Below are positions 19,742 to 61,222 of a stretch of DNA of 64,000 nt, one piece after another. The stretch's first letter is position 1, and each line of letters starts with the position of its first letter. Location: the NCBI RefSeq assembly GCF_019320115.1, contig NC_089584.1, positions 77,815,260 to 77,879,259 of the forward strand, given 5' to 3'. Under the pieces are notes generated by a model. It made no database searches. It was not told the origin of the DNA and saw only the letters and a list, made by a program, of their open reading frames with translations. Source of the stretch: Miscanthus floridulus (Eukaryota > Streptophyta > Magnoliopsida > Poales > Poaceae). A program made the position numbers and the translations under genes.

Positions 19742-19889
19742 AGTGTGACGTCAAGACAACGCATCTGCTACAACATTCTCTTTTCCTTTCTTGTACTTGA
19801 TAATATAGGGAAATGATTCAATGAATTCACACCATTTTGCATGTCTTCTATTCAGTTTTAGTTGTCCTTTAAGGTGTTTCATTGATTCA

Positions 19890-20922: not shown

Positions 20923-20932
20923 TTGTCGCTAA

Positions 20933-25100: not shown

Positions 25101-26952
25101 AAACAAGTTTTCATGCATTTAAAAACACATTTCAAGTTCCTATTTAATTCATCCAAAATTTCTACTTCAGGTGCTCATGTAATATTTTTCTTAAATACTA
25201 GACTTTATTGTGATTCTACCAAAACTTGAATCACACCATTTGGATCTACCAACAAGGAGATACAAAATTCACAAAACAGCATAGAAATCTATAAATTTGA
25301 ACTATCCTACAACTGAACTGTCACTGACGCGTGGGACCCGCATGTCAGCCGGGCCCGCTGGTCAGCGACACGGAACAGGGGAGATGGCATGCGATGGCGC
25401 GGCAGTGGTCTAGCTCGCCAATGACGAGGACTCCGGTGACACCGAGGACACCTACGTGATCTTCATGATGAGGTGAGTCGATTGGTGCTACCGGCAAGAC
25501 TCAAGGTTCTTCGGAGATGGCTCGTCGTCGGTGAAGGCGGCACGGCAGAGCTCCAGCGCGAGGCACCGACGATGGTGAGCCCTTGCTGCCTCATCCGAGC
25601 TCGGTATGAGCTCCACGAGGTCACTATGGTGCTATCCAAGCAGAGAGAGGAGGACGAGGAGGTCTTGGTGGTGGTTGGCCGCGGTGAGCTCTGCTCCGGC
25701 GAGGCGTGGCCATGGAGACGGTGACGGAAAAAACGGCCACTGGCCCTCACATAAGGCATGGATGGCTCGGCTAGGCGGTTGACGAGGTAGAGGAGGACAC
25801 GGCGGAGCTGTGGTTGAGCTATGGTTCATGTTTTTGCAGCGGCGATGGAGCTAGGCGACGGTGGAGCTGCTCGGCAATGGCGGAGCTGGCGGTGCTGAGT
25901 TGCTGTGCGCGGTGGAGGCGAAGGAAATGAAAATTGAACTGGCGAGCTGGTTGAGCAGGTGCGTGGGGGGTTCAAGTCATGGCCTACAATGCCAGGACGG
26001 CCGTGGCGCATGGCTGCATGGTCAGGCGGCCGACGACGAGTGTCCTCCATGCGGTCGTCGATTTCTGAAATCGGTCAGACACTGTAGCTCGCCATTCAGT
26101 TAACCTTCGACGCTTGACAGTGATGATTGATGATCATGAAACTCCAAATCCATTGATCATCAGCGAAAACAGTCAAGATGAAAGTTGTAGCCCGTACTCC
26201 CATCTTCAATTTCTATTTAAGCACCAAGGACTAATTCTCAACAGATATAGAGGAAAATCACGCCAAAGTTGAGTTCATGAAACCGAAACTCAGTTATCAC
26301 ACTTAGAAAATTTTCAAGTGTTGAATCAGCCTTCAATACTGACTTGTGGGACCTTTTTGAGCATGTTGTGCACATTTTCATGACTTGGCTTCTAAACAAA
26401 GTTTGTTCCTTATAAAATTTGCTACAACTTTGCTTTAGGTTGCTCAGACATGCAAACACTCTAAGCTACATTTTTTAAATAGTCAATCAAAAGGGTTTAG
26501 GAGTCAAAACAAGTCAAACCACTATTTGAAATCATAATTAAGCAACATGATCAACATGAACAATGTTCCAAATGACCTTCTAAGTATCACTAAGTTGTTC
26601 AAGAGAATTATTAGCCACACCACACCTTGGTCACACAAGAATCAAGCATTGTATGTACTGAAACATTGAAAAACACATGAAATGTTACATTTGTTTCATA
26701 GTCATGTTGCACATGTTTCATGATCTTGTTGCATCATACTAACTAACCATGTTTCACTAAAGTGAGTTGCACATGTTGCACTTGAGTGTTGTACACTACT
26801 TATTTCATAAAACAACACACATGAAATATGCAATATGTTGCAATGTTTTGAAAACATGTTTCATGTGATATAAGCTTACGAATGGATGAATGATGCTCAT
26901 GTTCATGAAATGCAAGTGCAAAATGTGGAAGCCAAACACCAAGGGTGTTATA
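22184..26952 (-). repeat. 3' LTR of element D (about 4.77 kb)
   Basis: It runs from TGTCATAGAACC to GGTGTTATA on the plus strand. The outer TG of the element strand has become TA by one C-to-T change on the plus strand. It is AT-rich with a GC-rich block at about 25320-26090. It holds the shared hairpin block at 22606-22665. No genes; the short ORFs inside look like chance. Confidence 0.78.
22606..22665 (-). promoter_or_regulatory. Shared LTR block with hairpin, element D copy
   Basis: On the minus strand it reads GTAAGTCTAGCTGAGTAC, a loop, TACTCAGAGTTTATTCCC, then TTGTTGCAGATGA. The order and spacing match the copies in elements B and E. Confidence 0.6.
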
Positions 26953-26968
26953 GCCCTCCCCCTTATAA
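26953..26968 (-). other. Polypurine tract of element D
   Basis: The minus strand reads TTATAAGGGGGAGGGC directly before the LTR start. Confidence 0.75.
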
Positions 26969-26969
26969 A

Positions 26970-28182
26970 AATCTTGTCCTAAGATTTGAAAAGCATACCA
27001 TTGTTGATAGAATTCCTTATAACCGTCCCTCAAATAATCTTCTCTTTCCCATGTTGCATCGCGTTCACTACCCTGATTACTCCACATGACTTTGTAAAAC
27101 TTGACCACTTGACTCCGAGTCACTCGCTCATGAGTGTCAATCACTCGGACCGGCTTTTCTTCAAAGGTCAAATCTGATTTTAACTCGATATCCCCCAAAG
27201 GAACTCTCTCTTCGGGGACGCGAAGACATTTCTTCAATTGGGATACATGAAAGACATTGAAGATAGCACTCATCTCAAGAGGTAATTGAATCTTGTACGC
27301 CACCTTACCACTTTGTCCAATGATTTCAAACGGACCAACATATCTCGGTGCAAGCTTTCGCTTCACACCAAAGCGTTGGACACTCTTCATGGGTGAGACT
27401 TTTAGATAAATGAAGTCTCCAACTTCAAACTCAATAGGTTTTCTACGTCGATCAGCATAACTTTTCTGCCTAGCTTGAGCTGCGGCCATGTGGGTTTGGA
27501 TAATACAGACTTGTTCTTCGGCTTCTTGAACAAAATCAATTCCATAATACCTTCTTTCACTGGCTTCTACCCAATTCAATGGGGTTCTACACTTTCGGCC
27601 ATACAAAGCGTCAAACGGTGCCATCTTGATGCTCTCTTGATAACTATTATTGTACGAGAATTCAGCTAGGGGCAACCATTTTTCCCATGAGCCCTTAGCT
27701 GAGATGACACATGCTCTCAATATATCTTCTAAGATTTGATTCACTCGTTCAGTTTGCCCATTGGTTTGCGGATGATAGGCAGAACTTCTTATTAACTTAG
27801 TTCCTAATAATCCGTGTAAGTGCTCCCAAAAGCGAGTAGTGAACTATGGTCCTCTATCAGAGATAATAATACAAGGGATCCCATGAAGTCGGACTATCTG
27901 ATTAAAGTACAATTCCGCATAGTCGGTTGGACGGAAATCTATGCGGATAGGAATGAAGTGTGCAGACTTGGTCAGACGGTCTATAATCACCCAAATGGAG
28001 TTAAAATTCTTCTGAGTAGTAGGGAGTCTAACTATAAAATCCATACTTATCTCCTCCCATTTCCAACCTGGAATAGAGAGTGGCTGAAGTAATCCCGCTT
28101 TCATGTGCACAGCTTTGACTCGACAACAAGTGTCACACCTAGCCACATAAGCGGCTATCTCTTTCTTCATTTTGGTCCACTA
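26970..28182 (-). pseudogene. Integrase with C-terminal chromodomain, element D
   Basis: The first block, 28170-27844, has the zinc-domain end CDTCCRVKA and core motifs WEEISMDFIVRLP and DRLTKSAHFIPI. The second, from 27744, has LPLAEFSYNNSYQ, MAPFDALYGRKCRTPL, a GPFEIIGQSGKVAYKIQLP barrel, VFHVSQLKKCLR, and a chromodomain-like end VKFYKVMWSNQGSERDATWE. The chromodomain places it with chromoviruses of the Tekay/Del type. A TAG stands at 28182-28180 just before WTKMKKEIA, and other stops lie between the blocks. Confidence 0.85.
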
Positions 28183-28611
28183 AAATCGAGGCTTCATATC
28201 ATGATACATTTTGCTACTACCAGGATGAATAGATAGTTTAGAGGAATGGGCTTCAGATATGATTTGATTTCTAAGCTCTCTATCCTTCGGAACTACCAAC
28301 CTATCCTTGAACCATAACACGCCATCCTCATCTACTCGAAAATGTTTGGTTTATTGCTCTTTCATCTTGCGCTTAATGTGGAACACACCTGGATCTGTCT
28401 TCTATAGCTCGATAATTCGACTCTATAGAGTACAACTGACAGTGATGTTGTATAGGACTGTAGGATGAAGGAGTTTTGACAAATGGACATCACTCTCGAT
28501 CAATGAGTGACAATGAGATTTCCTACTTAAGGCATCCGCTACAGCGTTTGCCTTGCCCGGGTGATAGTGCATTTGGAGGTTATAATCCTTGATTAACTTG
28601 AGCCATCTTCT

Positions 28612-29073
28612 CTAACGCATATTCAACTCTGGTTGAGTGAAGATATACTTGAGACTTTTATGATCAGTGTAGATGTTGCACACATTGCCGAGCAAATAAT
28701 GTCTCCAGGCCTTCAAAGCATGAACAACTGCAGCGAGTTCCAAGTCATGCATTGGATAATTCACTTCATGCTTCTGAAGTTGGGGAGAGGTATAAGCAAT
28801 GACTCTACCCTCTTGCATAAGAACACCTCCTAACCCAATACTTGATGCATCGCAGAACACATCAAAAGGTTTCTCAATATCCGGTTGTGCCAAAACCGGA
28901 GCCAAAGTTAGAAGAGTTCGCAGGGTGTGGAAAGCCGCATCACACTCGGGAGTCCAGACAAACTTCATGTCTTTTTGCAGCAACCGAGTCATAGGCTTGG
29001 CTATTTTAGAGAAATCTGGGATGAAATGACGATAATAGCTAGCCAACCCCAGAAAACTCCGAACCTCGTGCAC
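28612..29073 (-). pseudogene. RNase H region of element D
   Basis: Motifs are [61 protein letters not shown] and [11 protein letters not shown], all characteristic of the Ty3/gypsy RT connection and RNase H. It ends ELNMR then TAG (28614-28612), where element E has the same ELNMR followed by Gln (CAG) and RRWL. This is a directly visible C-to-T nonsense change. Confidence 0.87.
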
Positions 29074-29175
29074 CGAGATTGGAGCCTTCTAGTTCAACAC
29101 TTCTTGCACCTTGGTGGGATCAACCATAATTCCACCATCGAACAACACGTGTCCAAGAAAAGGTACCTCATGAAG

Positions 29176-29700
29176 CTAGAATTTACATTTGCTGAACTTT
29201 GCATAAAGTTGGTGTTCTCGCAACCTAGTGAGAACCACTCGCAAATGTTCAACATGGTCTTCTTCGTTTTTTGAATAAACCAGGATATCATCTATAAATA
29301 CCATCACAAATTTGTCCAATTCGGGCATAAACACCGAATTCATCAGATACATAAAATGTGCAGGGGCATGGGTCAATCCAAAAGACATAACAAGGTACTC
29401 ATACAGACCATATCTTGTAGAGAATGCAGTTTTTAGAACATCCTCAGGCCGAATTTTGATTTGATGATAACCAGATCTCAAATCAATCTTAGAAAAGACT
29501 TTTGCTTTAGACAACTGATCAAATAAGATATCTATGCATGGCAAAGGGTACTTATTCTTGATTGTAACTGCATTCAAGGGCCTATAATCTACACACATGC
29601 GTAGGGATTGATCCTTCTTTAGAAGCTCATTCAACTAGGTCTTAAGTTTGGCTAGTTCATTGGGAGGCATCCTATACGGCCTTCTAAAAATGGGCACTGT
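29176..29700 (-). pseudogene. Reverse transcriptase of element D
   Basis: The open block 29634-29176 holds [46 protein letters not shown] and [14 protein letters not shown] at 29637-29635 interrupts KT-LNELL where element E has KTQLQEL. The VFIDDILVY box is as in element E, so the catalytic aspartates remain. Compared with element E, a piece is missing between LNELLKKD and SLRMCVDYR. Confidence 0.86.
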
Positions 29701-34128: not shown

Positions 34129-37100
34129 CTATATTGACGCTAGAAACTCTGGAAACTTTTCTAACAAGTAATCTTCTGATTCCCAAGTAGCTTCCTCTTC
34201 TAAATGTTGATTCCATTGTATTTTATAGAACTTGATTGTCCATCTTCGAGTAACACGATCTTTCTGATCTAACACTCGGATAGGATATTCGGAATAAGTT
34301 AAATCCGGTTCTAGTTCCACTCCTTCAACTTCAACATTTTGTTCAGGCACTCGGAGACACTTCTTCAATTGAGAAACATGGAACACATCATGCACAGCTA
34401 TGAGATGTTCAGGCAATTGCAAGCGATATGCCACCTTTCCATTCCTTTCCAAAATTTGATATGGTCCAATATATCGAGGTGCCAACTTTCCTTTAACACC
34501 AAAACGGGTAACTCCCTTCATTGGTGATACTTTCAGATATACAAAATCTCCTTTGGTAAATACCAATGGTCTCCATCTTCTATCCACATAACTCTTTTAT
34601 CGGGAATGAGCTATCTTCAAATTTCTCTGTATTTGCCTAACCTTGTCTTCTGTTTCTTTCACAAGGTCAACTCCAAAAAATCTTCTTTCTCCAGGCTCAG
34701 ACCAACTCAATGATGTCCTACATCTACGACCATAGAGTGCTTCAAATGGAGCCATTCTAATACTTTTCTGATAACTATTGTTGTATGAGAACTCGGCCAA
34801 AGGTAAGCATTCGTCCCACTTATTGGAATAGTTAAGGACACAACACCTTAACATATCTTCAAGTACTTGATTAACCCTTTCAGTCTGTCCATCAGTCTGC
34901 GGATGATAAGCTGTACTATACAGAAGTTTGGTACCCAATGAAGAATGCAATTGTTTCCAAAAGTTGGAGACAAACTGTGTACCTCTGTCTGACACAATAG
35001 TCTTGGGTACTCCATGCAAACTCATGATTCTTGCTAAGTACATCTTGGCATATTGGAATGTAGGATATATTGTCTTAACTGGAAGAAAATGTGCTGACTT
35101 AGTGAGTCAATCTACAATAACCCATACTGAGTCAAATTCTTTTGATGTCTTGGGTAGACCAACAATAAAATCCATACTTATGTCCTCCCACTTCCAAGAT
35201 GGAATAGGCAATGGTTGTAATTCACCAGCAGACCTCAAATGTATAGCTTTCACCTTTTGACAAGTATCACACTTCACTATATATCTAGCAATTTCTATTT
35301 TCATTTTAGTCCACTAGAATCTTTGCTTCAAATCATGGTACATCTTGTTGCTTCCCGGATGGATTGATAACCTAGTAGCATGTGCCTCATCTAGAATTGA
35401 CTGTCGCAACTCAAGAACTTTTGGTACCACCAGGCGATCCTTGAACCATAACACATCTTCATTGTCAATACTAAAGCATTCCGCTTTTCCATTCTTGACT
35501 CTTTCCTTAATATGGGCTATACCCTGGTTTTCCTTCTGAGCAGCAATAACTTGATCTCGAATAGTGGCTTCAACAATTATATTGGTCAAACTTCCTTGTT
35601 GAATTACTTCTACATTCAACTTTTCCATTTCTTGACATAAATTCAAATCCATTGTCCTCACTGTCAGACAATTGCAATAACCTTTGCGACTGAGGGCATC
35701 TGCAACTACATTTGCTTTACCGGGGTGATAATGTACTTCCAAGTCATAATCCTTAATCAGTTCTAACCATCTTCTCTGTCGCATGTTCAACTCTGACTGA
35801 GTAAAGATGTACTTTAAGCTTTTGTGGTCTGTATACATATGACACGTATTACCAAGCAGGTAATGCCGCCAAATCTTCAGAGCATGAACCACAGCTGCTA
35901 ACTCCAAGTCATGGGTCGGATAGTGTTCTTCATGTTGCTTAAGTTGTCGGGATGCATAAGCAATGACTCGACCTTCTTGCATCAATACACATCCAATACC
36001 AATATCTGAAGCATCACAATAAACATCAAATGGCTTCTCGATGTCAGGTTGGGCTAATACTGGTGCCGTGGTTAACAGTCTCTTCAAAGTCTGGAAAGCC
36101 TCCTCACAATCTGATGACCAGACAAACTTAACTTGGTTCTTCAACAATTCAGTTATGGACTTTGATATTTTTGAGAAATCTGGAATAAACCGACGGTAAT
36201 ACCCCGCCAAACCTAGAAAACTCCGAACTTGATGAACTGTGGTTGGCGGTTTCCAATCAAGCACATCCTTCACTTTGCTTGGATCAACTGCAACTCCTTC
36301 GGCTGATAAGACATGTCCAAGAAATTGCACTTCCTTAAGCCAAAAATCACACTTGCTGAACTTGGCATATAGTTGATGTTCTCTCAAATGGGTCAGAACA
36401 ATTCTGAGATGTTCCGCATGTTCTTTCTTATTCTTGGAATATACTAAAATGTCATCAATAAACACCACTACAAACCTATCTAGCTCAGGCATGAATACTG
36501 AGTTCATTAGATACATGAAATGAGCTGGAGCATTTGTCAAACCAAAAGACATTACCAAGTATTTATATAATCCATATCTTGTGGTAAACGCTGTTTTGGG
36601 AATATCTTCAGGCTTTATCTTGATTTGATGATATCCTGATCTCAAGTCTATCTTGGAGAAAACTTTGGCTCTGGCCAATTGATCAAAAAGCAGATCTATC
36701 TGAGGTAATGGATATTTATTCTTGATGGTCACTTCATTCAATGGACGATAGTCAACACATAACCTCAGGGTCTCATCTTTCTTTTTCACAAAAATTGCCG
36801 GACATCCCCAAGGTGAGGAACTAGGTTGGATAAACCCTTTCTCAATCAATTCTTGTAACTGAGTCTTCAACTCGGCCAATTCCTTAGGTGGCATCCTATA
36901 AGCTCTCCGAGAAATCGGAGCTGTTCCAGGTTGTAACTCTATATTAAACTGTACATCCCTATCAGGTGGTAGACCGGGTAAATCTTCAGGAAACACATCC
37001 GGAAATTCACACACCACCGGAATATCTCTAATCTCTTTGATAGTAGTTGCACAAATCTTGCCCACTGATCTTCTTAGGGTTAGAAGTTGGATAAGAAGTT

Positions 37101-38637
37101 GAGAATTACTATCAGGCAAATTCACTCGTAAGGTCCTATTCAAAGCATCTATAACAGCCTTATGCTGATACACCCAATTCATTCCCAAAATTACATCTAT
37201 ATCCTGATCCTTAAGGATAATCATGGTAGTGGGAAAAATATGCCCACCCAGGTTTACGGGTACCTGGTATGCCATTTCCTTAGTACATAGACGTCCCCCG
37301 GGCGACTGTATAAAGAAACTTTCCTTTGTTGCCCCAATGGAAATTTCATGCTTCACGACAAATGTTCTATTGATGAATGAATGCGATGCACCAGAATCAA
37401 AAAGTATAACTGCAGGGTGATTGGCAACAGGAAACATACCCATCATCACTGGCTCCCCTTCCGAAATTTCTCCAGCTTGAATATAGAACACCCGTCCTGT
37501 CTTCCTCTCATCTTTGCCCTTTTGAGCATTCTGATTGGGGTTCTTGTTTGGTGCCTGACCCTGTTGTTGATTAGCAGGGACCTTCTGATAATTTTGATTA
37601 GCCTGCCTAGGATATAGACATTCCCTAGAGAAATGACCAGTTCTTCCACAATTGTAACACGGATAGTTGTGACCCTAGGATGTTGGAGCATTACCACCAG
37701 GAGCATTGGTTGACTGTGAACTCGGATAGGTTATAGCAGGACGGATATTTGACTGTTGCCCAGCTTGGAACTGCGGTGGATGATAAGGAGGATGATTATG
37801 ATGTACTGGATGATAAATCACCCTCTGCCTCTTCTGATTTCCACCAAAAGATCCAGACGGCACACTCTTTTTCTTTTTGAGCTCCTTATGCTGCCGATAC
37901 TTTGATTCTGAAGCAATTGCAATATTTACTGCCTCATGGTAAGTAACATTGGTGCAAGTGGTCATCATAGTCTGCAACTTGGTATTCAGGCCTCTCATAA
38001 ACCACCTCTTCTTCTTGACATCAGTATTGACATGTTCGGATGCATATTGGGACAGATGATTAAATCTTCCCACATACTGCATCACGGTTTGATCTCCTTG
38101 TTTCAAAGCAAGGAATTCATCTAGCTTCATAGCCATCACTCCTTCAGGGATATAATGGGCTCTGAAGGTAGTACGGAACTCAGCCCAAGTTATTGGAATA
38201 CCAGCAGGTTGCATAGCCACTAAGTTTGCCCACCAAGCACTTGCTGCTCCTCTAAGTTGTTGGGCGGCAAACGTAGGTTTCTGATACTCCGTGCATGGGA
38301 TAAGGTCAAATTTCTGCTCCATGGTTCGAAGCCAGTCATCAGCCTCCAATGGTTCATCTACCTTGGTGAACACCGGGGGTCTTGTGTCTGTGAAATCAAC
38401 ATATATAGCCTCTTGTCGGTTATGGTGGCGTCCACGGTTTCCGTACATCTGATTCTGATTACTCTGGGCCATCTCATGAAGCAAACGAGAATTTTCAGCC
38501 GTCACATTGACAAGTGCGGTTATAGCATCAACTAAATTGGTTGGAACTGGTGGTGGATCTGGAATACCATCCTCATCTTGTGAAGTTCCAGGAATATACG
38601 AACCTCGCGTACGACGCATCTGCTCATAACAAACCAA
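34129..38637 (-). pseudogene. gag-pol of element E: one frame with four nonsense changes
   Basis: A single frame of 1503 codons runs without frameshift from the ATG at 38637 to the TAG at 34131-34129. In order it holds: gag core (about 38480-37900, with EADDWLRTMEQKF and WWANLVAMQP), zinc knuckle [14 protein letters not shown], protease [15 protein letters not shown] with [21 protein letters not shown] and [10 protein letters not shown], RNase H with [10 protein letters not shown] and [11 protein letters not shown], integrase zinc domain CDTCQKVKA and core MDFIVGLPK to PLAEFSYNNSYQ, then the chromodomain-like end IKFYKIQWNQHLEEEATWE. Stops inside are TAG at 37677-37675, TAG at 35316-35314, TGA at 35109-35107 and TAA at 34599-34597. 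Three of the four are explained by one C-to-T step in a Gln or Arg codon, the fourth by a G-to-A step in a Trp codon (C-to-T on the other strand). The longest open piece is 725 codons (37491-35314). Confidence 0.92.
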
Positions 38638-38794
38638 ACTTTATTCACATGTCTTTATTGAATTATACCAAGCTTACTCTAGACACATTACAAGGAGTTT
38701 ACTAATGTACAAACAAACCCACGAGTACGAGAACAAAACTACTTAACTTAACTAGAGCTACTATTATACAACTCTACTCTTTTCCTCAATTTCT

Positions 38795-49100: not shown

Positions 49101-52100
49101 AGTTTATTTGGCAATCATGTTTTAATGTGAATTCTATGAAATATTTCTATATTTTTCACAAGGAATTCAGTTCATTTTCTGCGATAATCATTTTGTGATT
49201 ATGCTTCCAGTATCTTCTTTATATGATGCACTAGTTTTCTCTATGATTTGTTCTTCTCTTACATTATCAAAGATATTTAAACAAGAAGAAGGCTGCTGAA
49301 GAGATGGTTCAGCATTATGAGAAGCAATCATCAGTGGATTACAGCCTCAAAGAAGGGGAGACATTGGTTCTTCAGCTTAAAAATGTAAGTTTCCATCTAA
49401 AAGTTTTCTGGAAGAAAATGACATCACATCTGTCAAGGACCTCCGGTCCTCGGATAGCTGGACCTCGGCTACGTAATTCGTAGCCGCGATCCGTCTTCTC
49501 CGGCGAGGTTTTCCCCTCCGCCGCAGGCTTGGTTTTGTTGAGAGAGAGAGAGAGTTTAGGAGATAATAACTTGCTTAATCTCAAGTGTCACACCCTTACA
49601 AGATAAGTAGGCCGGCGGCCTAACAAACTTGGCAACAACCATTTGGAAATAAACTAATTTAGAAATAAACTCTCCTAAAATCAAGGCCATGCAAATCTAG
49701 CCACTTTCACCGGCCCTGCCTTCCTCCTGCGCGCTGCTCGCGCCTGCTGCGGATGCCCGGGCCGCGGCTCTCCTGATATCTCGGGCCCGCCGGCGACGTG
49801 CATATGTATGGCCCCACATGACATCTCCCCCCCCCTCGAGATCCAGCTCGTCCTCGAGCTGAAACGTTGGATACTTGCTGCGGAAATCATCGAGATCCTC
49901 CCAGGTAGCCGAGGAAGCCGGTTCACCGCGCCAGTGAACCAAGACCTGACGGACACCGCGCGCCAAGCGAGCTTGCTCGACCCGTGCCGGCTCTGGGACC
50001 ACCACGCCATGGTGGATGTCTGGTAGTGGTGGTGGAGCGGATGGAGGCGTGCCGACGAACTTCTTGAGGGTGCTCACATGAAACACGTCATGGATGCGAG
50101 CTTGCGGGGGTAGCTCGAGGCGCACGGCGACGTCGTTGATGAGTTGCACCACACGGTAGGGCCCCAGGTAGCGAGCTTTGAGCTTGCCTGTCGTAGATTG
50201 GGGCAGAGAGGACGGGGCGCGCTGACGAAGACGAAGAAGCGCCCAGTCACCCACTGTATATGAAACCGGCCGGTGACGCTTGTCGTAGTGGAGCTTCTGC
50301 GCTGCCTGCGCTTGTTCTAGCCGGTGACGGACGTCGGAGAGGAAGGCCTCACGCGCCTCCATGTCCCGAGCGACTGCCGCGACCCACGTCTCGCCAGGCT
50401 CATGAGCGGATGGTGGGCGGGTCCCGGCCATACACCACGCGGAACGGCGTCTCGTGCAGGGACGACTGGTAGGCGGTGTTGTAGATGTACTCGGCCCACG
50501 GCAGCCAGCGGAGCCATTGACGGGGACGATCGCCGGTGATGCAGCGCAGGTACATGACGATGACGCGGTTCGCGGCCTCCGTCTGCCCATCGGTCTGGGG
50601 ATGGAAAGCGGATGACATGCGCTGCTTGGTCCCGATGAGACGCATGAGCTCGCGCCAGAACGTTGAGGTGAACACCGGGTCGCGGTCGGACACCATGGAC
50701 TGCGGCACGCCGTGAAGGCGTACAATGTCGGTGAAGAACGCCTGTGCCACGGACTCGGCGGTGTATGGATGAGTGAGGGCAATGAAGTGGCAGTACTTGC
50801 TGAAGCGATCGACGACGGAGAGGATCACCGACTTCCCGTTAACACGGGGCAGCGCTTCGATGAAGTCGAGCCCAATATCCGCCCAGACGACTGTGGGGAT
50901 GGGCAGCGGCATGAGGAGCCCTGCCGGATTGAGGTGCCCCGACTTGTACCATTGACAAGTGACGCACACTCGTACAAAGTCCTGCACAAGACGACGCATG
51001 TTTGGAAAATGAAAGTCACGTCGAAGGCGGTGTAGAGTACGCTGGACGCCCTCATGGCCGTCGTCATGGACCGTCGAGATGATCTCCTGCAGGAGAGGGG
51101 AGGACGGTGGTATGTAGAGGCGCCCATCGTAGAGCACCATGCCGTCTGCCACGGTCCAGGGAGCCGCGCGTGACCCAGCACGGACTTCGTCGTGGATGGC
51201 CACCAGCGCGGGGTCGAGGGCCTAAGCGTGGCGAAGCCGGCCGATGAAGTCGAAGCGGGGCGCTGAGATCGCACGGAGACCGCCCGTGCCTTCCTCGTCG
51301 TCGCGGCGTGAAAGCGCGTCCGCCACCGTATTGGACGCCCCCGACTTGTACTCGACGGTGAAGTCGAAGCCGAGTAACTTCCCGACCCAGTGGTGCTGCG
51401 GAATGGTGGCGAGATGCTGGTCGAGAAGATACTTGAGACTGTAGTGGTCCGTCTTCACAAGGAAACGCCGTCCCCACAGGTACGGCCTCCAGTGCCTCAC
51501 CGCGAGGACCAGGCCGATGAGCTCCCGCTCATACGTGGCGAGGGAGCGATGCCAGGGCGCCACGGGCCGGCTGAAGTACGCGATCGGATGGCCCTCCTGT
51601 AGCAGTACAGCCCCAAAGCCATACGTAGAAGCGTCGCACTCGACGAGGAAGGGCTTGGTGAAGTCCGGCAAGGCCAAGACCGGAGCTGAAGTCACGGCCG
51701 CCTTGAGTGCGCTGAAGGCTGTCTCGGCGTCGGGATTCCACGCGAACCTCTCTTTTTTGAGGAGGGCCGTGAAGAGGGCCGCGATGGCGCCGTAGTTGTG
51801 TACGAATTTCCTGTAGTAGCCGGCCAACCCGAGGAAGCCGCGCACCGCGCGCGCCGAGCGGGGACGTGGCCAATCATGGATGGCCTGGACCTTGGCGCTC
51901 TGATACCAGGTTGTCAAGGACCTCCAGTCCTCGGATAGCTGGACCTCGGCTACGTAATTGGTAGCCGCGATCCGTCTTCTCCGGCGAGGTTTTCCCCTCC
52001 GCCGCAGGCTTGGTTTTGTTGAGAGAGAGAGAGAGTTTAGGAGATAATAACTTGCTTAATCTCAAGTGTCACACCCTTACAAGATAAGTAGGTCGGCGGC

Positions 52101-53124
52101 CTAACAAACTTGGCAACAACCATTTGGAAATAAACTAATTTAGAAATAAACTCTCCTAAAATCAAGGCCATGCAAATCTAGCCACTTTCACCGGCCCTGC
52201 CTTCCTCCTGCGCGCTGCTCGCGCCTGCTGCGGATGCCCGGGCCGCGGCTCTCCTGATATCTCGGGCCCGCCGGCGACGTGCATATGTATGGCCCCACAT
52301 GACACATCCTGTTGACGAGAGATTGTCTTCTAAGGTCTGCAGAGCTAGAATATTGGATGTGGTGCCGCATTAGGTGGATATGTTCATTGGATAGATTGCA
52401 ATAAACTTTTAGATCATGGGATCCTTGTCAAATCTGTGTCTAAGAAAAACATGGTCAATATATGACGTGTTTATCTAGAATATTTTCATGTAATTCCGTT
52501 TACGCATAGTTCCCATTAGATCTCTCTTATTTAAGCAACGCATGCTTGCATATCCATAGATATTTAAATTGAGGCTTTGAGCTACTCTTGCATAGGAACG
52601 TGAAAAAAAAATTGAGTGCTCCTGTACTGCATTGAAGGGTATTTGCAGTGATGTGCCAAATTTTGTGTAAATAAAGCGTTTATTCATAATTTTTGTAACA
52701 TGTGCATGCATCCCTTTTCATTCAACTTTTATATCTACATTTGTCTTTGTGTAATTGTTTCCTGAGTGTTTGGCTTTTCTTTTATTCTGTGCAGAAAGAA
52801 ACTGGCACCAAGACAAAATCGGCATTTTTTGAGCAAGGCCTAAACAAGCTCTCAGTGAACGAAAAGACAGACACCAAGGAGATCCCCGTCTCCCTTAAAC
52901 TCCCACCACCACCTTCGCCTGTCTCTCCAACGGATTCTGGAGTCGCTGCTTCGCCTTTCAAAGCAGAATTTCCTCCCCAAGAGCAACCAGCTGCTGAACC
53001 CATGAGCAGAACCAGCGCTCTCCCTTCCAAAGGTGAACCTGCTCCGGAGCTACCAGCTGCTGCAGAGAAGATGGAGCAAGAAACCGTGGACGACGACTTC
53101 GGGGACTTCCAGGCTGCTGGGTGA
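46125..53124 (+). CDS. NECAP-like protein (adaptin ear-binding coat-associated)
   Basis: Eight exons: 46125-46217, 46377-46408, 47558-47658, 47734-47806, 47953-47984, 48524-48614, 49273-49384 and 52795-53124. They total 864 coding bases, so 287 residues, with consistent phases and GT-AG introns. NECAPs bind AP-2/AP-1 adaptor ears and help clathrin-coated vesicle formation. The PHear (DUF1681) domain fills residues of about 16-170, with LVLFQVAECYVYL, WEGALKVASKGE, ARAFLREGEPHPVEP, RYFVLRVE, HAFIGLGFRERPEAYDF and QHYEKQSSVDYSLKEGE. The tail is Pro/Ala-rich and disordered and ends DDDFGDFQAAG. FGDF fits the FxDF type of adaptor-ear ligand. The start ATGGCG has the usual grass context. Introns carry several insertions, including element F in intron 7, yet all splice sites are intact, so the gene is probably active. 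Confidence 0.93.
46750..47406 (-). repeat. Probable Copia-type LTR remnant in NECAP intron 2
   Basis: The minus strand begins TGTTAGAATTTATATGG at 47406, like a Copia LTR start. An AT-rich part follows, then GC-rich sequence with a direct repeat of about 66 bp (about 46835-46966). The other end and the target duplication could not be fixed. Confidence 0.4.
48687..48991. repeat. Long inverted repeat (hairpin) in NECAP intron 6
   Basis: Two arms of 145 bp (48687-48831 and 48847-48991) are inverted copies with about 95 percent match around a 15-base loop. The arms contain GGCCCCGTTCGC termini known from grass MITEs. They also extend outward by about 24 bp of sequence (AGGAGTTCTATGTGTGG) mirrored on both sides. 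Identical short ORFs on both strands are a consequence of the symmetry. Confidence 0.9.
49431..49823 (-). repeat. 3' LTR of element F (393 bp)
   Basis: Plus-strand ends TGTCAAGGACC and CCACATGACA. It contains a GA dinucleotide run (about 49540). It differs from the other LTR at three single bases, all within otherwise identical sequence. Confidence 0.95.
49697..51203 (-). pseudogene. Integrase with chromodomain, element F
   Basis: The 51203-50400 block carries the zinc domain (HDDGHEGVQRT and CVTCQWYKS) and core motifs WADIGLDFIEALP, DRFSKYCHFIAL, SDRDPVFTSTFW and HPQTDGQTEAANR. Near 50400 two bases appear to be missing, and the protein continues in another frame to 49697. That part has EPGETWVAAVARD, VGDWALLRLRQR, YLGPYRVVQLINDVAVRLELP, IHDVFHVSTLKKF and a chromodomain-like end VLVHWRGEPASSATWEDLDDF. 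So integrase is whole in content but frameshifted once. Confidence 0.88.
49824..49836 (-). other. Polypurine tract of element F
   Basis: The minus strand reads AGGGGGGGGGAGA directly before the LTR start TGTCATGTGG. Confidence 0.85.
51222..51896 (-). pseudogene. RNase H region of element F, fused to the primer site
   Basis: It begins at KVQAIHDWPRP directly next to the primer site and continues [72 protein letters not shown] and VEYKSGASNTVADALSR. It runs in frame to a TAG at 51222-51224, where Q would fit (RHA-ALDPAL), then to the integrase block. There is no start codon of its own. Confidence 0.87.
51897..51908 (-). other. Primer binding site of element F
   Basis: The minus strand reads TGGTATCAGAGC, a perfect methionine-tRNA site, three bases inside the 5' LTR. 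Confidence 0.9.
51912..52304 (-). repeat. 5' LTR of element F (393 bp)
   Basis: Same length and ends as 49431-49823. Confidence 0.95.
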
Positions 53125-53378
53125 TATCATGTATCTTGTACATACAGAATGCTACTGAGACCACATTTTCATTTTTGGTTTATCTTCTTTCAATCAGTTG
53201 TGACTTCTGCTGGCACTCTCCCTGTATAGAGAGCTTCCATCTCAGCCTATATACAAATACATGGACAAACGTTGTACCTTTTGTTTTGACGTAACATGTC
53301 AGATTTTGTATTCGGGCCACAGAGATACAAAAATTCGCAGATCAACAGGGGTAGCAAGGAGGGCGAGAGGGGGCAAGA

Positions 53379-53650
53379 GGATGCCCCTTGTGAGGAGAGA
53401 GGAGGAAGAAAGGAAGAGGGGCTACCGCCCATGTCCCCGTAGACATGGAGGAAGAAAAAGCAAGAGGATGCCCCATGTCTCCGTTACTCCGTAGACAAGG
53501 AAGGAGGGAAGATAGAAAGCAAGAGGGGCTACCGCCCATGTCTCCGTAGACAAGAAGGAAGGAGGAAGAGAGAAAGCAAGAGGATGCCACATGTCTCCGT
53601 AGACAAGGAGGGAGGAGGAAGAGAGAAAGCAAGAGGGGCTACCTCCGGTC
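53379..53650. repeat. Purine-rich minisatellite, about 53-bp units
   Basis: The word GTAGACA recurs at 53439, 53491, 53546 and 53599, a period of 52 to 55 bases. Alternating units contain GAGGGGCTACC or GAGGATGCC, followed by CATGTCTCCGTAGACAAGG. It lies between the convergent ends of the NECAP-like gene and ATG7. No gene is seen between 53125 and 53984. Confidence 0.85.
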
Positions 53651-53984
53651 TTATGTAAGCAAGGCGAGCGTTACACCTTCAGTTATCAATACATACATCT
53701 CCAACTCTCAGAACCAACACCGAGCCAAGCAGAAATAAACATCGAACCAACTGAACTGACATCGAGCCAAACAGAAAATAAGCAGTATTTGGCTAGACTC
53801 TTTTTTGTGCGTTACAAGTATATAAAAGCTAGCAACGTGGCTGGATGTCAGAATTGTTTATAGGGTGGTTGCTTGATTGCTTCGCATTGTTGAGACGAGT
53901 CAATCCATGATTATGTCATCTCGCCATCTCTTGTATCAAATCGTAGGAAATGATATTTACAGTAGTCAAAACCATTGTAATATA

Positions 53985-56900
53985 TCAGACCTCGACGAAA
54001 TCGTCTTCGTCAGTTTCATCTACCCACTCGACCTGTGAGTAAGATGTGGATTTCATCAAGTCCGTGAGGCCGGTTAGGTCTTCCAAATAAGTTGGTTCAT
54101 TGATCACTTGCATCACAAAATCCATTCCTCTCCTCCGATATTCAGACAATACCTGTGATGTTTTTGCATGTAATCAAATAAGAGATCGGTAGCATAGCTG
54201 TCAGCAAACTTTAGTATCGTTTGCATTGTTGGAACTGGAAAAGGATGAAACTCACACGACAACAAACTCAGGCACTCCCAGAACTAAAACCGAAGCAACG
54301 CCAACACACGAGAGCAGACATATTTGTGGCTGGCGACGCATGCCTTTTCTCTGTATTCTCAGTTAAAAAGCAACAACCATGCTGCGTACTTGGCTCATAT
54401 GCCAGCTTACGTGCGCAAGGGAGCATGTATCAATTGCCCTGATCTATGCACACGCACGCACACTCCGCACCAGCGTACACCGCAATGACACGGTCCACTC
54501 ACGTCCCCTGATCAAACCACACCTCATAACGTGCCCAACTAACCATGCAGCAGCTAACTACTTGCTGCCAACTAAGCATGCAAGCAGCTAAATACTTGCT
54601 ACACTAAGCTTTTCAAATTTCAATAATGCCCCGGCCATTAGCTAGACGAGCTGCACACACGCTTCTGACTAGCACCAGCAAACAAGCTAACTTGTACATG
54701 CAACGAACATGAAGAGACTCTAAACTTACAAGACACAGATCCACTACTAACTCATATTTACTCATGCAGAGACTCTAAAACTTGCACAAGTCGCTGCAAG
54801 TGCTAACATGCATGTTGTGCAAGAGAAGAAAGTTTACATACCGCATTGGAACATGCCGTGCAATTACTCGAGGAATAGCCCAGCAGGGTTAATAAGTTGT
54901 ACTGCAATATTGATCCACGCATCTGGTGAGGTAATATACCATGCTGATTACCACTGCTTGTACCAGCAATCTCTCCTGGAGCATGTATCCTGCAACAGGT
55001 AGAAGTCTTTATCAGACTCCTTACTTTTTTTTCACTGGATGCAGTTAGCATCTTCCTTGGAAATGATAACACATGAAGTCATAGTATCGTTCCAGCTTCC
55101 TGGTGCCCAGTTGCTTACCCATCTGGATGATGTAACATTCTTGTGAAAAGGTCTGCGGCATGTCCAGATGCAATAGAGGCCAACCCAGGTCGTGTCACTG
55201 TACATTGTTGATCCAGTGTCCGATTGGATACTGACTGCATCAAACATAATGACATGATTGTAGTAGGTAACATATATATTAAAAGCAAAACAAGTATGAT
55301 TTCCAAAGCATGGAACATTACATCAACAGGAGCAATGACGTCATTGCAGAAATAACACCCCAGCCTTTGATGCCCAAGGGCATCCTCTGTGGACAGCATA
55401 TCTGTGGCAGTGGCCACATTGGAAGCTTCACAGCTTATGCCAGGACCAGACCCATGTCGCATGACAAGGTAACTATCATACCCTAATGCTGCAGTAATAG
55501 CAATCTGCAGTGCAGAGGGGCATTAGCATATAACACATTCCAAGGTCTACATTATTCAAGGATTCCTAGAGGATTCACCTTGTTTTCATTAGTGCAGAGG
55601 AGAGTTGGAAGCCACCTACTTTCTCTTGTGTCGGTCAACAAGAAGATAGCATCGTGAGAAGCCACTAATTCCTTAAGGCACTCGCAATCTTGGAGCACAC
55701 CAGCTTCTTCACCCAGAGACACAGGATGCCCAGGCATAGGTATTTCCATTTTAATGCCTTGTGCATCCTACATGAGCGCATGGCACATATTCATTAAGAT
55801 GAGAAAACAGTAAAAGAAAAAAGGAAGTAGTATAGCTTTAAGGGCGATGAAGTGAAGACTCACCACTGAAGGACATCTCTCTACTAGATGCCTAAGTATT
55901 GCCGTTGCTTTTGGAGCACCACGGTCATCAGAAGTATAGAGTGATTGTCTTGCTAAATTTGACACAACTACACGACCACTATCAACTATTGTTAGCTTCC
56001 GTACACCACAGTCCTGCAAAGTTGGTTTCCACCAGAGTGTATGAGTAGATGTTGTATTTTAACATAAAAGTAACATCATTCGCATTGTCTCAACATAGCA
56101 GGTCCCAAGCCCTAGTAAAGGAGGAGGGTTGTGATAGGCGTGGCGAGCCATCGTTAAATCTAGCCATTCTAATGGAGAATGGAGATTCGCAATACCGAGT
56201 CACTGACCATAAGAATGCGAGCAACATCACATCCAAGAGTTCCAGCACCCAATAGTAGACATCGGACATCAGAAATCTTGTCTGAATTTACAGAGATGCT
56301 GGCTGGTATTTTAGGACAAGTATCTGGCCTTTTCAAATCAGAAATGCCTGTAAAATCTTTCAGATATGTTGGATAGTTGATGGCCTGCATGACAAAATCC
56401 AATCCTCTTCTTCTATACTCTGACAATACCTGGAATGTTTAGCACGGAGTAACATTAGAAACCATAAAATTGTGAGAATGTAATGTCATGAGGTAGAATT
56501 TACTTACAGCAACAGAACATGCAGTACAATTGACCGAGGAATTGCTCAGCTCCATAGATAAACCACACTTTGGGAGTGATCCCCGTAGCTGATGCGGCAA
56601 TAGACCAAGCTGATGTTCTGTTTCCATACCAGCAGTATCGCCTGGAGCATGTATCCTGCAAAAGGGTATGATACTTATGGCACCACATGGTGGACTGAAT
56701 TTTTTTTTTTCAAACTTCCCTACTGATTAGCTTACTCAGGTCCGTAAAAAAGACTAATATTCACTATCAATGCTACACAAACATAAGTTGGACTCAGCAA
56801 TAATCTTTAAGGCATCTTACTCGTCAGGGTGATGTAGCATCCTAGCAAAGAGCTCCACTGTTTTGCCAGATGCAACTGAGGTAAGTCCAGGTAGTGTTTC

Positions 56901-59900
56901 ATAAGGAATTGGCTGCAAAAGAATAAAACTGAACATCAAGGGCCAATAATAAAGTATAAAACAGAAACAACAGGAGACACATGTACCTTAATAAGGGAAG
57001 CAGCATCATTGCAGAAACAACAGCCCAATCTTTGATTACCAGGAGCACCTTCTGTGGACAAATTTTCTATCTGAGTAATCACTTCATCTGTACCCCCACT
57101 TGTTCCAGGTCCAGCACCATGTCGTATGACAAGGTAACTGTCACATCCTAATACTGCACTAATAGCAATCTGCAGTGGAAGTATAACATATCATTAGTAA
57201 ATAGCAGCACTATACACAATGAAAAAGTAGAGGTTAACAGTAATTTTTGTAACTAAGACGTGTGGTTAATTTATCTGGATTCCCTCCTCCAGCCATAGGC
57301 TAAGTACTTAGACATTGCTGTACAAGAACAGCTGAAAAGGTCCTTAGCCAATGGATACTGTGTTCAAGCTTTACCTTGTTTCCACTTGCACAGAGAAGAG
57401 TTGGAAGCCACCTGCTCTCCGATGTGTCAGTTAACAAGAAGACTGCATCATTGGCAGCCACTAATGTCTGCAGATGCTTGCAGTCATCAAGCACACTTGC
57501 CATTTTGCTGGAAGAAACAGGATGCCCAGGCACCGGTATTTCCATTTGGATGCCTTCAACCTCCTGCATGACAGCAATCACCATCAGTTATCCACATCAG
57601 AAATTCGAAAGCATATGTTTCAAGGAAAAGACTGTCCTCACCACTGCAGAACATCTTTCTTTTAGATGTGGAACTATTGCAGTTACTCTTGGAACTCCAC
57701 AGTCCTTATCTATGTAGAGTGATTGCTTGACAAGGTCAGACGTCGCAACACTACTACTATCAACAACTGTTAGTTTCCGTACACCCCAGGTCTGAAAAAA
57801 GAAATGGTTGCCACCATAAATTAGAAGCAGGATATAATGACATATAATCTGTTAGATTTATTACAAATAGGAATCTAGTACCAAGCACTAACCATAAGAA
57901 GGCGAGCAACTTCACATCCAAGAGTTCCAGCACCCAAGAGAAGAACTCGAACATGAGATAACTTGTCTATATTCACAGGAAAGTGGCGCCACCCCATAAG
58001 CTTTAAGTGCATCAATTGTTTTTCTTCATCCTGACTGTGCATGAAATAAACAATCAAGATAGTTTTTTATGCACCGTTGATTATATCGAAACTCAAAGGC
58101 AAAATATACAATAAAACCACCTTGCTGGATTCATTGATTGAAGATTTATTTCTTTTGGTTTCATTTCTTTTGTTCCCTTCCCTGGGTTTACTCCTTCCCA
58201 TCCAATAGCATCAGGTAGAAAATCAGGGTCATCACAACCTGTAGTAACAGCCAGTGTTACAAATGGACAAATCATAGATGAAAATGCAGAATGACATTTA
58301 AATCCACTATATTTATACCACAAGGTGATGGAAATGATGCTTCACCAATGAGGGACTGTTCCAGATCAGGGTTCCCTTTATATTCACGGTAGCAGAAAAA
58401 CTGGACTTTCTCAATCTTCCATCGGATACTCAGAAAGGCAACATAGTTTCTAATAACCCAACCAGGGCAATCTGAGCGACACCCATGATCATAAAATCCA
58501 AATAGTAGCTGCAACAGCAAAGCAATTAATTTACTTCACACAAAGAATGTACATGAAGAAGGGTAAAAAAACAGATACTCTTCTAAAGGATTTATCAAAC
58601 TTCAGGTAGTATAGAAGATCAAATGGATGACATAAACATACCTTTTGATAGTTCCCCTGGCAAGCTTTCCAGTCCTTAAGTTGTCTTATAGAGACAGAGG
58701 AATCTGAGGATATACTGACCAGAAAGAATGGAATGACTGCAGAGATGTTAATCCATTGCAATAATGAAATAGAAAATCAGATCACATAAGAAATTAATAA
58801 TATGATGTCAAGCATATGCATTTGCTGTTAGGCATGGTTCTCAAACCTGTTGTTTCACTAGAAGCGCGCCACTTTTGCAATGATGTATACATGGATGCTG
58901 CCTGCAGGAACAAATCAACAGATTTCAGAACCAACTGAGAGCATCAAATAAGGATGCTAGTGTTGAATACTAGGTGCACATGAACATGACCTCTTCCTTA
59001 GTGAGCACTTTTGAGGCAGGTTGCAGGCTGAGCAGGGTCATTCTTGAGTTGAAAACCAATGACGGGAATGCAACATTGTAATAGACCTTCCAATTCTTCA
59101 AATCGGCAAATGATGTCACAAGGAACCTAAGTAGAACAGAAGGATCCTCTTCTACTTTACCAGACACAATGTCAAGCAAGATCTGGGCCCACACACAAAT
59201 TAGAACCAGACAAGTAAAAGAAATGCATAAACAATAGCAAATTCCATGTCAACCATACCTTCTTTGCTTCTGCTTTCAGAAGCTGTTCTCTATCTAGGTT
59301 TTGGAATCCCCTCATGTTATTAGTGTTTATGAGGGTCCCTGGGACTGGACAATTGTTTCTGTCGCCAACAGAATTGTGAGATGGTGGCACCAATGATCCG
59401 GACCGTAGGTTGAAGAAGCTTGCCATCGGGCGACGCTGGCACGGAGTATAATAACCTGATATTTCAAAAGAATGTCTAGTTCATCCATAGATCTCTAGTC
59501 TAGCTCTCTGTCAATAAAATTAAGCAAAAAAAACACAAAACTGAAATTCTCTGTTGGGAATTTCTTCCGGTGAAACCAGTGGCGGAGCCAAGGACCGGCC
59601 ACCCTGGGCCAGTGCCCGGGCTCCTTTGCTGCTGGCCAGGTGCCCAAAAGCTGCCATGCTGCGCATCACCACGCTGCCAACCCCAGGCTCCTGAGTTTGC
59701 ACTTTGCAGCAAAAAAATGCAAATAGTAGAGGGATGGAGGCTTTGCCTAGCATGTAGATTTCAGTTTTCTTATATGCATGGATTAAATTGGATGGATGAT
59801 TTACGACCGTGCACTAATAAATGCATATTTCTTGTGATTTTGATTTAGGAATGATGTGTTTTTTTGGTTGATACAAGGAACCATCCTGACCATATGGAAC

Positions 59901-61222
59901 ACTTTCACCAGTGAGTTTGATCCTAACAAAAAATCCCATGTAATTCATCTATTTATATTCCATTCTCTAAGTCGCTATGAAGTTATGTACTGATTCCTAG
60001 TTTAGTTTGAAATTATTGCGGTCGTCCAATTTGGCTTGTATGTTATTATTATACATTATATGCGTTGATTCTCACAATTAGGGGATGTTTGGATCCTGTG
60101 ACTAAAATTTAGGAGGTGTCACGTGAGGATGTCGTATGGGGTGTTCGGATACTAATAAAAAAAACAAATTACAGAATCCGTCAGTACTCCACGAGAAGAA
60201 TTTATTAAGCCTAATTAATCTATCATTAGCATATGTTTACTGTAGCACCACATTGTCAAATCATGGACTAATTAGGCTTAAAAGATTCGCCTTGCAAATT
60301 AGTCGCAAACTGTGCAATTAGTTTCGTAATTAATCTATATTTAATACTCCGTGCATATGTCCAAACATCCGATGGGACAGGGTGTTTGGTTCTTTAGTCG
60401 CTTCTAAAATTCATGTCACATCGAATGTTTAGATACTAATAAGGAGCATTAAATATAGATTAATTACAAAACCAATTACATAGATGGAGGCTAATTTGCG
60501 AGACGATTTTTTTAAGCCTAATTAATCTGTCATTAGCACATGTTTACTATAGCACCACGTTGTCAAATCATGGACTAATTAGGCTTAAAAGATTCGTCTC
60601 GTAAATTAGGCGCAAGTTGTGCAATTAGTTTCATAATTAGTCTATATTTAATACTCCATGCATGTGTACAAACATTCGATGTGACGGGAATTTTATGAGG
60701 CACTGCAGAACCAAACTGGGCCTTAGTATGGTGTTGTATCACGCCCAGGCTCCATAAAGTTTCTGGCTCCGCCACTCGATGAAACTCAACAGTTCATCAT
60801 TGGAGTCAATTGCATGTTAAAACTAGACACAGACACACAGTAGACCGCAAAGAGTAATTAGCAACCACACTCCGGCGAACAGCCAACTTCCGGCGAACCC
60901 ACTCAACAACCAAACAAACTTGGATCGTGACCGGCAAGCAACTAAGGCGGGTTGGGCTCTAGGGAAGTCCGGAAGCGGGGCGCGGAAATGCATGGGATCA
61001 GCGTTCGTTCCCTGCCCTAAATTGCGAATTCTACGAACAAACAGCGAAGAGAGGGGGTTGTGGGCGAGCGAGCGAACCGGTGATTGGGATGGGGGAGTCG
61101 TCGGTGCCGAGGACGTCGAGCTTGAGGCGGCGGAGCGCGTCCCAGAACCCCTCCTCCACTAAGCTCTGGATGCGCTGAACCATCAGGTCCCGTGGGAAGC
61201 CCACCGCACCGGCACCCGCCAT
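53985..61222 (-). CDS. ATG7: ATG7, autophagy E1 enzyme, with tandem-duplicated E1 module (1023 aa)
   Basis: Twenty exons: 61222-61078, 59455-59259, 59182-58991, 58901-58847, 58736-58642, 58508-58319, 58238-58121, 58034-57893, 57791-57642, 57563-57375, 57169-56987, 56912-56821, 56655-56508, 56429-56208, 56013-55864, 55767-55579, 55504-55322, 55234-55119, 54989-54842 and 54152-53985. They sum to 3072 bases with consistent phases. ATG7 activates ATG8 and ATG12 and passes them to ATG3 and ATG10. Residues 1-330 are the N-terminal domain ([22 protein letters not shown]). Module 1 (331-about 670) has [10 protein letters not shown] but no catalytic Cys. Module 2 (about 675-1023) has a second [24 protein letters not shown] and the active-site Cys891 in [11 protein letters not shown]. 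Both modules keep the CxxC zinc pairs (CCFC or CYFC, and CTAC). The acidic C terminus [11 protein letters not shown] is typical. The start ATGGCG at 61222 is the first ATG of the exon. Splice sites were placed by eye. Confidence 0.92.
60083..60370. mobile_element. Nested MITE 1 inside the hAT-like element
   Basis: Ends GGATGTTTGGA and TCCAAACATCC are a perfect inverted repeat. The interior has the ATCATGGACTAATTAGGCTTAAAAG-type words (here split by variation) shared with the next MITE. Confidence 0.72.
60380..60721. mobile_element. Nested MITE 2 inside the hAT-like element
   Basis: Ends GGGTGTTTGGTTC and GAACCAAACTGGGCC are inverted repeats with mismatches. A second inner pair (ACATCGAATGTTTAG and ACAAACATTCGATGTG) suggests one MITE inserted in another. 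The interior is closely related to the MITE at 60083-60370. Confidence 0.65.

Follow-up and report, generated by a model that had tools for sequence, protein, structure and literature searches.

Two tandem adenylation modules, the first apparently degenerate, in the ATG7 protein of grasses

A two-module ATG7 gene in Miscanthus

We analysed a 64,000-nucleotide stretch of Miscanthus floridulus DNA (contig NC_089584.1, positions 77,815,260 to 77,879,259; hereafter the window). It contains a gene for ATG7, the activating enzyme (E1) of autophagy, in which the adenylation module is present twice in one reading frame. This gene runs along the minus strand, with its start codon at 61222-61220 and the last base of its stop codon at 53985. 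Rebuilding the gene from its splice sites reproduced the model of an earlier sequence-only reading of this DNA: 20 exons joined across 19 GT-AG introns give 3072 nucleotides in frame, encoding 1023 residues and a stop. Several junctions offered more than one frame-keeping option, of which the homology-preserving ones were picked, and the total equals the earlier one. The encoded chain consists of an N-terminal domain, a degenerate module 1, and an intact module 2 that carries the catalytic cysteine and the C-terminal tail. At E ≤ 0.001, Pfam finds ATG7_N (PF16420; E 3.3e-80, residues 16-327), ThiF, one overlapping Shikimate_DH match, and nothing else. ATG7 chains are the closest solved structures by sequence, and the nearest named proteins among the best 120 of 551 matches are those of Sorghum and Saccharum, at 93-95%. 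All exons are listed in Table 1.

The two GAGTLGC loops are located at residues 365 and 693, a spacing of 328 residues, and the exon lengths 150, 189, 183 and 148 recur in exons 9, 10, 11 and 13 and exons 15, 16, 17 and 19, both as described in the sequence-only reading. Compared exon by exon, these four equal-length pairs share 67-73% DNA identity. The duplication is also visible in the raw DNA without any gene model (repeat families D1, D3, D5, D7, D9, D10 and D11). An internal exon-block duplication had been proposed as the origin of the arrangement, and the raw-DNA repeats, the exon-pair identities and the module tree described below agree on it. Within the window the modules are 62% identical as proteins (192/309), with nonsynonymous and synonymous divergences of Ka 0.26 and Ks 0.87-0.92. 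The length difference between exons 12 (92 nucleotides) and 18 (116 nucleotides) reflects the absence of the catalytic-cysteine segment in module 1. Exon 14 (222 nucleotides) is the fusion exon: its 5' part matches the last exon (exon 20) and its 3' part matches exon 8, with approximately 39 unmatched bases in between. The copied block today starts within exon 8, past the LKLMxWR helix, and module 2 of the window lacks a separate N-terminal domain. Intron 1 holds a 190-nucleotide direct repeat (60192-60381 and 60499-60688, 89% identical), which we would guess to be a pair of small transposon remnants.

Table 1. Features of the ATG7 gene, in window coordinates.
Feature	Position	Strand	Content
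Exon 1	61078..61222	-	Start codon; N-terminal domain
Exon 2	59259..59455	-	N-terminal domain; ATG7_N Pfam match
Exon 3	58991..59182	-	N-terminal domain
Exon 4	58847..58901	-	N-terminal domain
Exon 5	58642..58736	-	N-terminal domain
Exon 6	58319..58508	-	N-terminal domain; frame-keeping alternative donor 3 nucleotides off
Exon 7	58121..58238	-	End of N-terminal domain, linker
Exon 8	57893..58034	-	Start of module 1: LKLMGWR helix and first GAGTLGC loop
LKLMGWR helix, residues 341-347	57986..58006	-	Module 1 only; matched, at the level of the segment, to where ThiF, MoeB and UBA1 bear the trans arginine
Exon 9	57642..57791	-	Module 1; K400 and R413, which are Arg and Lys, respectively, in module 2
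Exon 10	57375..57563	-	Module 1; DTRESRW altered to DTSESRW (residue 476)
Exon 11	56987..57169	-	Module 1; cysteine pair CCFC retained
Exon 12	56821..56912	-	Module 1; PIPYETLPG replaces the 17-residue catalytic-cysteine segment
Exon 13	56508..56655	-	Module 1; cysteine pair CTAC retained
Exon 14	56208..56429	-	Fusion exon with second GAGTLGC loop; junction within about 56294-56332; no LKLMxWR helix
Exon 15	55864..56013	-	Module 2; R728 and K741 intact
Exon 16	55579..55767	-	Module 2; DTRESRW intact (D802)
Exon 17	55322..55504	-	Module 2; cysteine pair CYFC
Exon 18	55119..55234	-	Module 2; catalytic cysteine C891 at 55204-55202, within the 12-residue motif
Exon 19	54842..54989	-	Module 2; cysteine pair CTAC
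Exon 20	53985..54152	-	End of module 2 and sole acidic C-terminal tail

Distribution and asymmetry of the modules

Protein searches were made with the window ATG7 (best 120 of 551 matches) and with a 695-residue one-module product of the same gene (best 120 of 1549). Matches listed by one or the other search supplied 47 grass entries (P0001-P0044, P0051, P0201 and P0206), five of which (P0002, P0003, P0015, P0029 and P0037) were assigned to grasses by rank and sequence. The comparison of the 1023-residue model with grass ATG7 proteins, suggested by the sequence-only reading, found two modules in 43 of the 47 grass entries listed, and two-module proteins head the match list. The four exceptions are two pieces that end in or after module 1 (P0051 and P0201) and two one-module hybrids whose first half is module 1 and second half module 2. 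The hybrids, from Oryza meyeriana (P0044, joined at exons 10/17) and Aegilops tauschii (P0206, joined inside the exon 10/16 pair), may be real skips, collapsed repeats or annotation errors. For motif counts we used 39 of the 47 entries (926-1074 residues) plus the window, giving 40 rows from 22 named genera that span Sorghum, Setaria, Oryza, Brachypodium, Hordeum, Aristida and Stipagrostis; left out were the four exceptions and P0038, P0039, P0042 and P0043, which have two modules and are truncated or mis-joined. The single-module relatives number 72 (P0047-P0120 minus P0049 and P0051), are 649-733 residues long, and include Carex, Juncus, Typha and Ananas.

A tree was built by a quick method from 78 module rows, drawn from 23 of the 40 grass proteins, 26 of the 72 single-module proteins and three other two-module proteins. 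The module 1 copies of grasses form one clade (support 100) and the module 2 copies another (98); the two are sisters (100) and lie amid other Poales. Such sister clades fit a single duplication on the grass stem, which would postdate the parting of the grass line from sedges, rushes, Typha and pineapple. Two-module ATG7 is present in each main grass lineage represented (BOP and PACMAD). Whether all grasses share the fusion had been left open by the sequence-only reading; for those sampled, each main lineage represented has it, and the tree fits one stem event. Recurrence of the two-module protein in 22 named genera excludes chance and, for grasses, the assembly artefact that the sequence-only reading had raised as a concern.

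The two modules differ sharply at functional residues. Module 2 is intact in all 40 rows at the ATP-site residues, the Arg and Asp of DTRESRW, the catalytic cysteine and both CxxC pairs. In module 1, the Arg and Asn of SNxxRQSLY are replaced by Lys and Asp in 40/40 rows, the ATP-site Lys by Arg in 39/40, and the Arg of DTRESRW by Trp, Ser or Leu in 39/40; the Asp of this last motif is kept in 35/40. The catalytic-cysteine column is a gap in 32 rows, Ser in four and Cys in four (Stipagrostis, Aristida, Brachypodium and one Phragmites copy), such that the cysteine is absent from 36/40 through lesions that differ by lineage. Module 1 therefore departs from ATG7 at the Arg in every row and at the Cys in 36, and module 2 at neither in any row. 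Both CxxC pairs, which are zinc sites in ATG7, are retained in module 1 in 40/40. The "two E1 modules" of the sequence-only reading hold for the duplicated adenylation region and fail for the catalytic-cysteine segment; judged from residues, one is degenerate and one intact. MoeB R73 and K86, which a passage of PMC13139853 names, are the counterparts of the ATP-site Arg and Lys according to an equal-length match between residues 682-745 and MoeB 27-90.

A further asymmetry lies ahead of the modules. LKLMGWR precedes module 1 in 40/40 rows and module 2 in 0/40, and LxLMxWR is present in 72/72 of the single-module ATG7s. In structure comparison this helix sits where the chain begins to match MoeB, ThiF and the first UBA1 domain. 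A literal arginine-finger assignment was dropped: R347 lies 18 residues ahead of the glycine loop, MoeB R14 and Uba1 R21 presumably lie some 22-24 residues ahead of theirs, and the aligner gives end points only. The finger of ThiF and MoeB is described in a passage of PMC13139853 as placed in the adjacent subunit's site and non-essential there.

Constraint on module 1 was judged by cross-species protein identity. The Sorghum and rice proteins are 71% identical in the N-terminal domain, 77% in module 1 and 87% in module 2, and module 1 exceeds the N-terminal domain in 8/8 species pairs, if barely so for window-Sorghum and Brachypodium-Hordeum. Free decay of module 1 does not fit these figures, and its conservation, with the kept cysteine pairs and helix, suggests that it is needed for fold rather than chemistry. 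Parsimony on the cysteine state gives three direction-free changes, which is not fewer than in many shuffles (46/500 were as low). If regain is excluded, the tree would imply about five losses, in Oryzeae, Pooideae except Brachypodium, Chloridoideae, Panicoideae and one Phragmites copy.

Two-module ATG7 gene models also occur in the eudicots Impatiens glandulifera (P0045, 997 residues) and Apium graveolens (P0046, 1063 residues). In the same tree the modules are sisters within each species (support 100 and 98, respectively), and these are therefore separate fusions if the gene models are right. At 142 near-invariant core columns, grasses show a median of 43 departures in module 1 (37-48) and 14 in module 2 (11-32); the corresponding counts are 17 and 4 in Impatiens and 16 and 3 in Apium. 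At 12 helix columns, departures in modules 1 and 2 are 5 and 10 in grasses, 0 and 6 in Impatiens, and 0 and 4 in Apium. The direction of decay would then be alike in all three fusions, again provided that the eudicot models hold. Each rests on one gene model; module 1 of Impatiens retains the named ATP-site residues and the cysteine, module 1 of Apium retains the cysteine, and module 2 of Apium retains the helix arginine. Capsella rubella (P0049, 819 residues) is a partial two-module case, and Daucus carota, a relative of Apium, has a single-module protein of 706 residues (P0146). No further two-module eudicot was found by length among the best 120 of 3018 matches to the Impatiens protein.

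Predicted pairing of the modules and alternative readings

We consider it fairly probable that grass ATG7 is a single-chain, asymmetric, pseudo-heterodimeric E1 for ATG8 and ATG12, in which a degenerate module 1 scaffolds an active module 2. In the ATG7 homodimer, according to passages of PMC12005411 and PMC12355090, the cysteine of one protomer hands ATG8 or ATG12 to a conjugating enzyme (E2) on the N-terminal domain of the other. In the grass chain, modules 1 and 2 would pair like the two protomers of that homodimer, and ATP binding, adenylation of ATG8 or ATG12, and thioester formation would fall to module 2 alone. Module 1, having abandoned catalysis, would be retained as a scaffold that lends its N-terminal helix to the ATP site of module 2. 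The sole N-terminal domain would sit on module 1 and dock ATG3 or ATG10, and the tag would pass to the docked E2 from the module 2 cysteine, turning the trans transfer of the homodimer into an intramolecular one, as in UBA1. One catalytic site per chain would suffice if the modules pair as predicted. The split may date from the birth of the fusion: the exon 14 junction omitted the helix from module 2, which would have deprived the ATP site of module 1 of its partner helix from the start and left it free to decay.

Structure prediction agrees in part with this arrangement. In the best of five models, module 1 is predicted to pack on module 2, and the best fold matches of the chain are Atg7 structures. 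In this moderate-confidence model the predicted packing resembles that of UBA enzymes over 410-450 residues at 3.1-3.9 Å in 28/29 UBA rows. A deeper alignment that included single-module proteins was set aside unfolded, as its invariant columns split the single-module proteins across modules 1 and 2. The earlier suggestion of a fused E1 dimer thus survives in the likeness of the predicted intramolecular packing, and does not survive as a pairing of equals: module 1 is degenerate and module 2 lacks the helix.

Several observations weigh against a single-chain pseudo-heterodimer. Confidence in the model is moderate (predicted local distance difference test, pLDDT, 68.9; predicted template-modelling score, pTM, 0.68; inter-domain error not given), and solved E1s were among the predictor's training structures. 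The remaining UBA row superposes at 8.0 Å, and Foldseek's own UBA1-type alignments are globally poor (TM 0.27-0.31 by query, 12-21 Å). Yeast Atg7 does not superpose on the N-terminal domain and module 1 taken jointly (18 Å over 546-565 residues), so the model does not support an E2-binding domain that faces the module 2 cysteine. Asp of DTRESRW persists in 35/40 module 1 copies and Cys in 4/40. The finger residue of ATG7 is only putative. Finally, the finger is non-essential in MoeB, ThiF and Tcd1-Tcd2 according to a passage of PMC13139853, and loss of the helix need therefore not inactivate a site.

A less probable reading is inter-chain dimerisation. Here two grass ATG7 chains would still pair as a homodimer by way of module 2 (or module 1), with the degenerate copy a passenger, a spacer or a docking site that binds ATG8 or ATG12 without activating them. 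Module 1 retains both CxxC pairs and most fold residues and could bind a tag or partner in this way, and the model does not fix the position of the N-terminal domain. Against this, a pair of module 2 copies would miss the helix found in 72/72 single-module proteins, an element that only module 1 supplies, and the predicted chain has module 1 packed on module 2. We regard an inter-chain dimer as unlikely, if worth keeping in view.

A rather improbable alternative is that the working enzyme is a canonical ATG7 made by splicing, the module 1 exons being optional or regulatory. Exon joins 8-15, 9-16, 10-17, 11-18, 12-19 and 13-20 are all in frame and give 687 or 695 residues, and the 695-residue product of the 8-15 join is complete with helix, ATP site, cysteine and tail. 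The hybrids P0044 and P0206 are of this general sort, but both retain the degenerate ATP site of module 1. No grass protein with the 8-15 join was found among the best 120 of 1549 matches, in a database clustered at 90% identity where a short isoform could hide. In four entries, longest contigs of 3.4-4.5 kb hold unbroken two-module frames of 1030-1040 residues; the ATG7 gene covers 7.2 kb, and from these lengths we infer that the entries are spliced messages. Conservation of module 1 as protein likewise argues against escape by splicing. The calculated masses are 112 kDa for the two-module and 77 kDa for the one-module protein. In wheat, a passage of PMC11274669 reports that ATG7 residues 31-960 were amplified for antibodies, the template not being stated there, and that a single immunoblot band ran at ~90 kD. 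This ambiguous band falls between both calculated masses and does not decide the matter, and it too counts against a single-chain pseudo-heterodimer.

A doubled E1, as the term fused dimer implies, with catalysis at two sites in each chain is very improbable: module 1 mostly keeps its glycine loop and Asp, and Cys in the four copies named above, yet the replacements of Arg and Asn in 40/40 and of Lys in 39/40, together with the loss of Cys in 36/40, led us to reject equal, doubly active modules. It is hardly credible that the fusion reflects an error of assembly or annotation, or the misjoining of two neighbouring genes, even though such errors are common in tandem repeats and a survey of foxtail millet (PMC5062844) gives SiATG7a and SiATG7b as a tandem pair of genes. 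The fusion recurs, in frame and at like length, in 22 named genera and also in contigs the size of transcripts, and module 2 of the window has no second N-terminal domain. Recurrence refutes the artefact for grasses but not for the Impatiens and Apium models.

Other features of the window lie outside the gene. An apparent last exon at 52795-53124 belongs to a plus-strand gene that ends in DDDFGDFQAAG and stands tail to tail with ATG7; degenerate short repeats, with spacings including 53 and 107 nucleotides, occupy 53340-53660 between the two 3' ends. Broken retrotransposon-like frames, their family judged by eye from translations, lie on the minus strand at 665-2026, 19178-22240, 26803-29634, 34132-38640 and 49700-52055.

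Comparison with known E1 enzymes and significance

Grass ATG7 shares with the plant, yeast and human proteins the ATG7_N domain, a ThiF-type domain, the 12-residue cysteine motif, the CxxC pairs and the acidic tail. It differs in having two adenylation modules, the first degenerate, in a chain of 1023 residues, whereas known ATG7 is a homodimer of ~700 residues with one module; a definition by one adenylation domain and about 700 residues does not describe the grass protein. We class it as an ATG7 variant whose mode of action is probably that of a canonical E1. Judged from residues, it appears to share with UBA1, UBA6 and UBA7 an inactive and then an active adenylation domain within one chain, in that order. 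It lacks their cysteine-domain insert or half domains and their ubiquitin-fold domain in Pfam, its E2 binding would be expected on the ATG7 N-terminal domain, and its origin is separate and younger. In plan, grass ATG7 appears closer to UBA1 than to a doubled ATG7; it is not filed as UBA1-type because Pfam finds no UBA1 cysteine half domains or ubiquitin-fold domain. In the yeast Tcd1-Tcd2 pair (tRNA ct6A, ThiF fold), a passage of PMC13139853 describes Tcd1, itself without the ATP-site arginine, as supplying an arginine finger to the active site of Tcd2; these are two separate proteins with another reaction, and their finger is non-essential.

Long grass ATG7 sequences are already public, and single oddities are in print: passages describe twenty exons for OsATG7 (PMC11013097), besides the SiATG7a/b pair. 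Neither the module duplication nor its asymmetry was found described in the titles, abstract openings and passages of the open-access literature covered. Rice OsATG7 mutants are autophagy-defective, as a passage of PMC9103229 states.

It is an evenly balanced proposition that grasses have re-invented the ubiquitin-E1 plan from a homodimeric E1, by fusion, decay of the first domain to a scaffold with helix and E2-holding domain, and retention of the second as sole active site. The polarity of decay may have been set by the position of the fusion junction, which would explain the same direction in the Impatiens and Apium models. Grass ATG7 offers a datable case of the passage from a symmetric homodimeric E1 to an inactive/active one, apparently a single grass-stem event with many living descendants in which the cysteine was lost repeatedly. 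The corresponding step of UBA1 predates the last eukaryotic common ancestor, according to a passage of PMC11864663; if the re-invention is true, grasses would hold a much younger and still comparable copy of that step. Both autophagy conjugation systems start at ATG7, and findings made in Arabidopsis, yeast and human are easily transferred to cereals. If grass ATG7 is a single-chain pseudo-heterodimer, its stoichiometry and regulation in cereals would differ, each chain having a single active site and a single E2 platform, and point mutants, dominant negatives and cysteine-based tools would have to target module 2.

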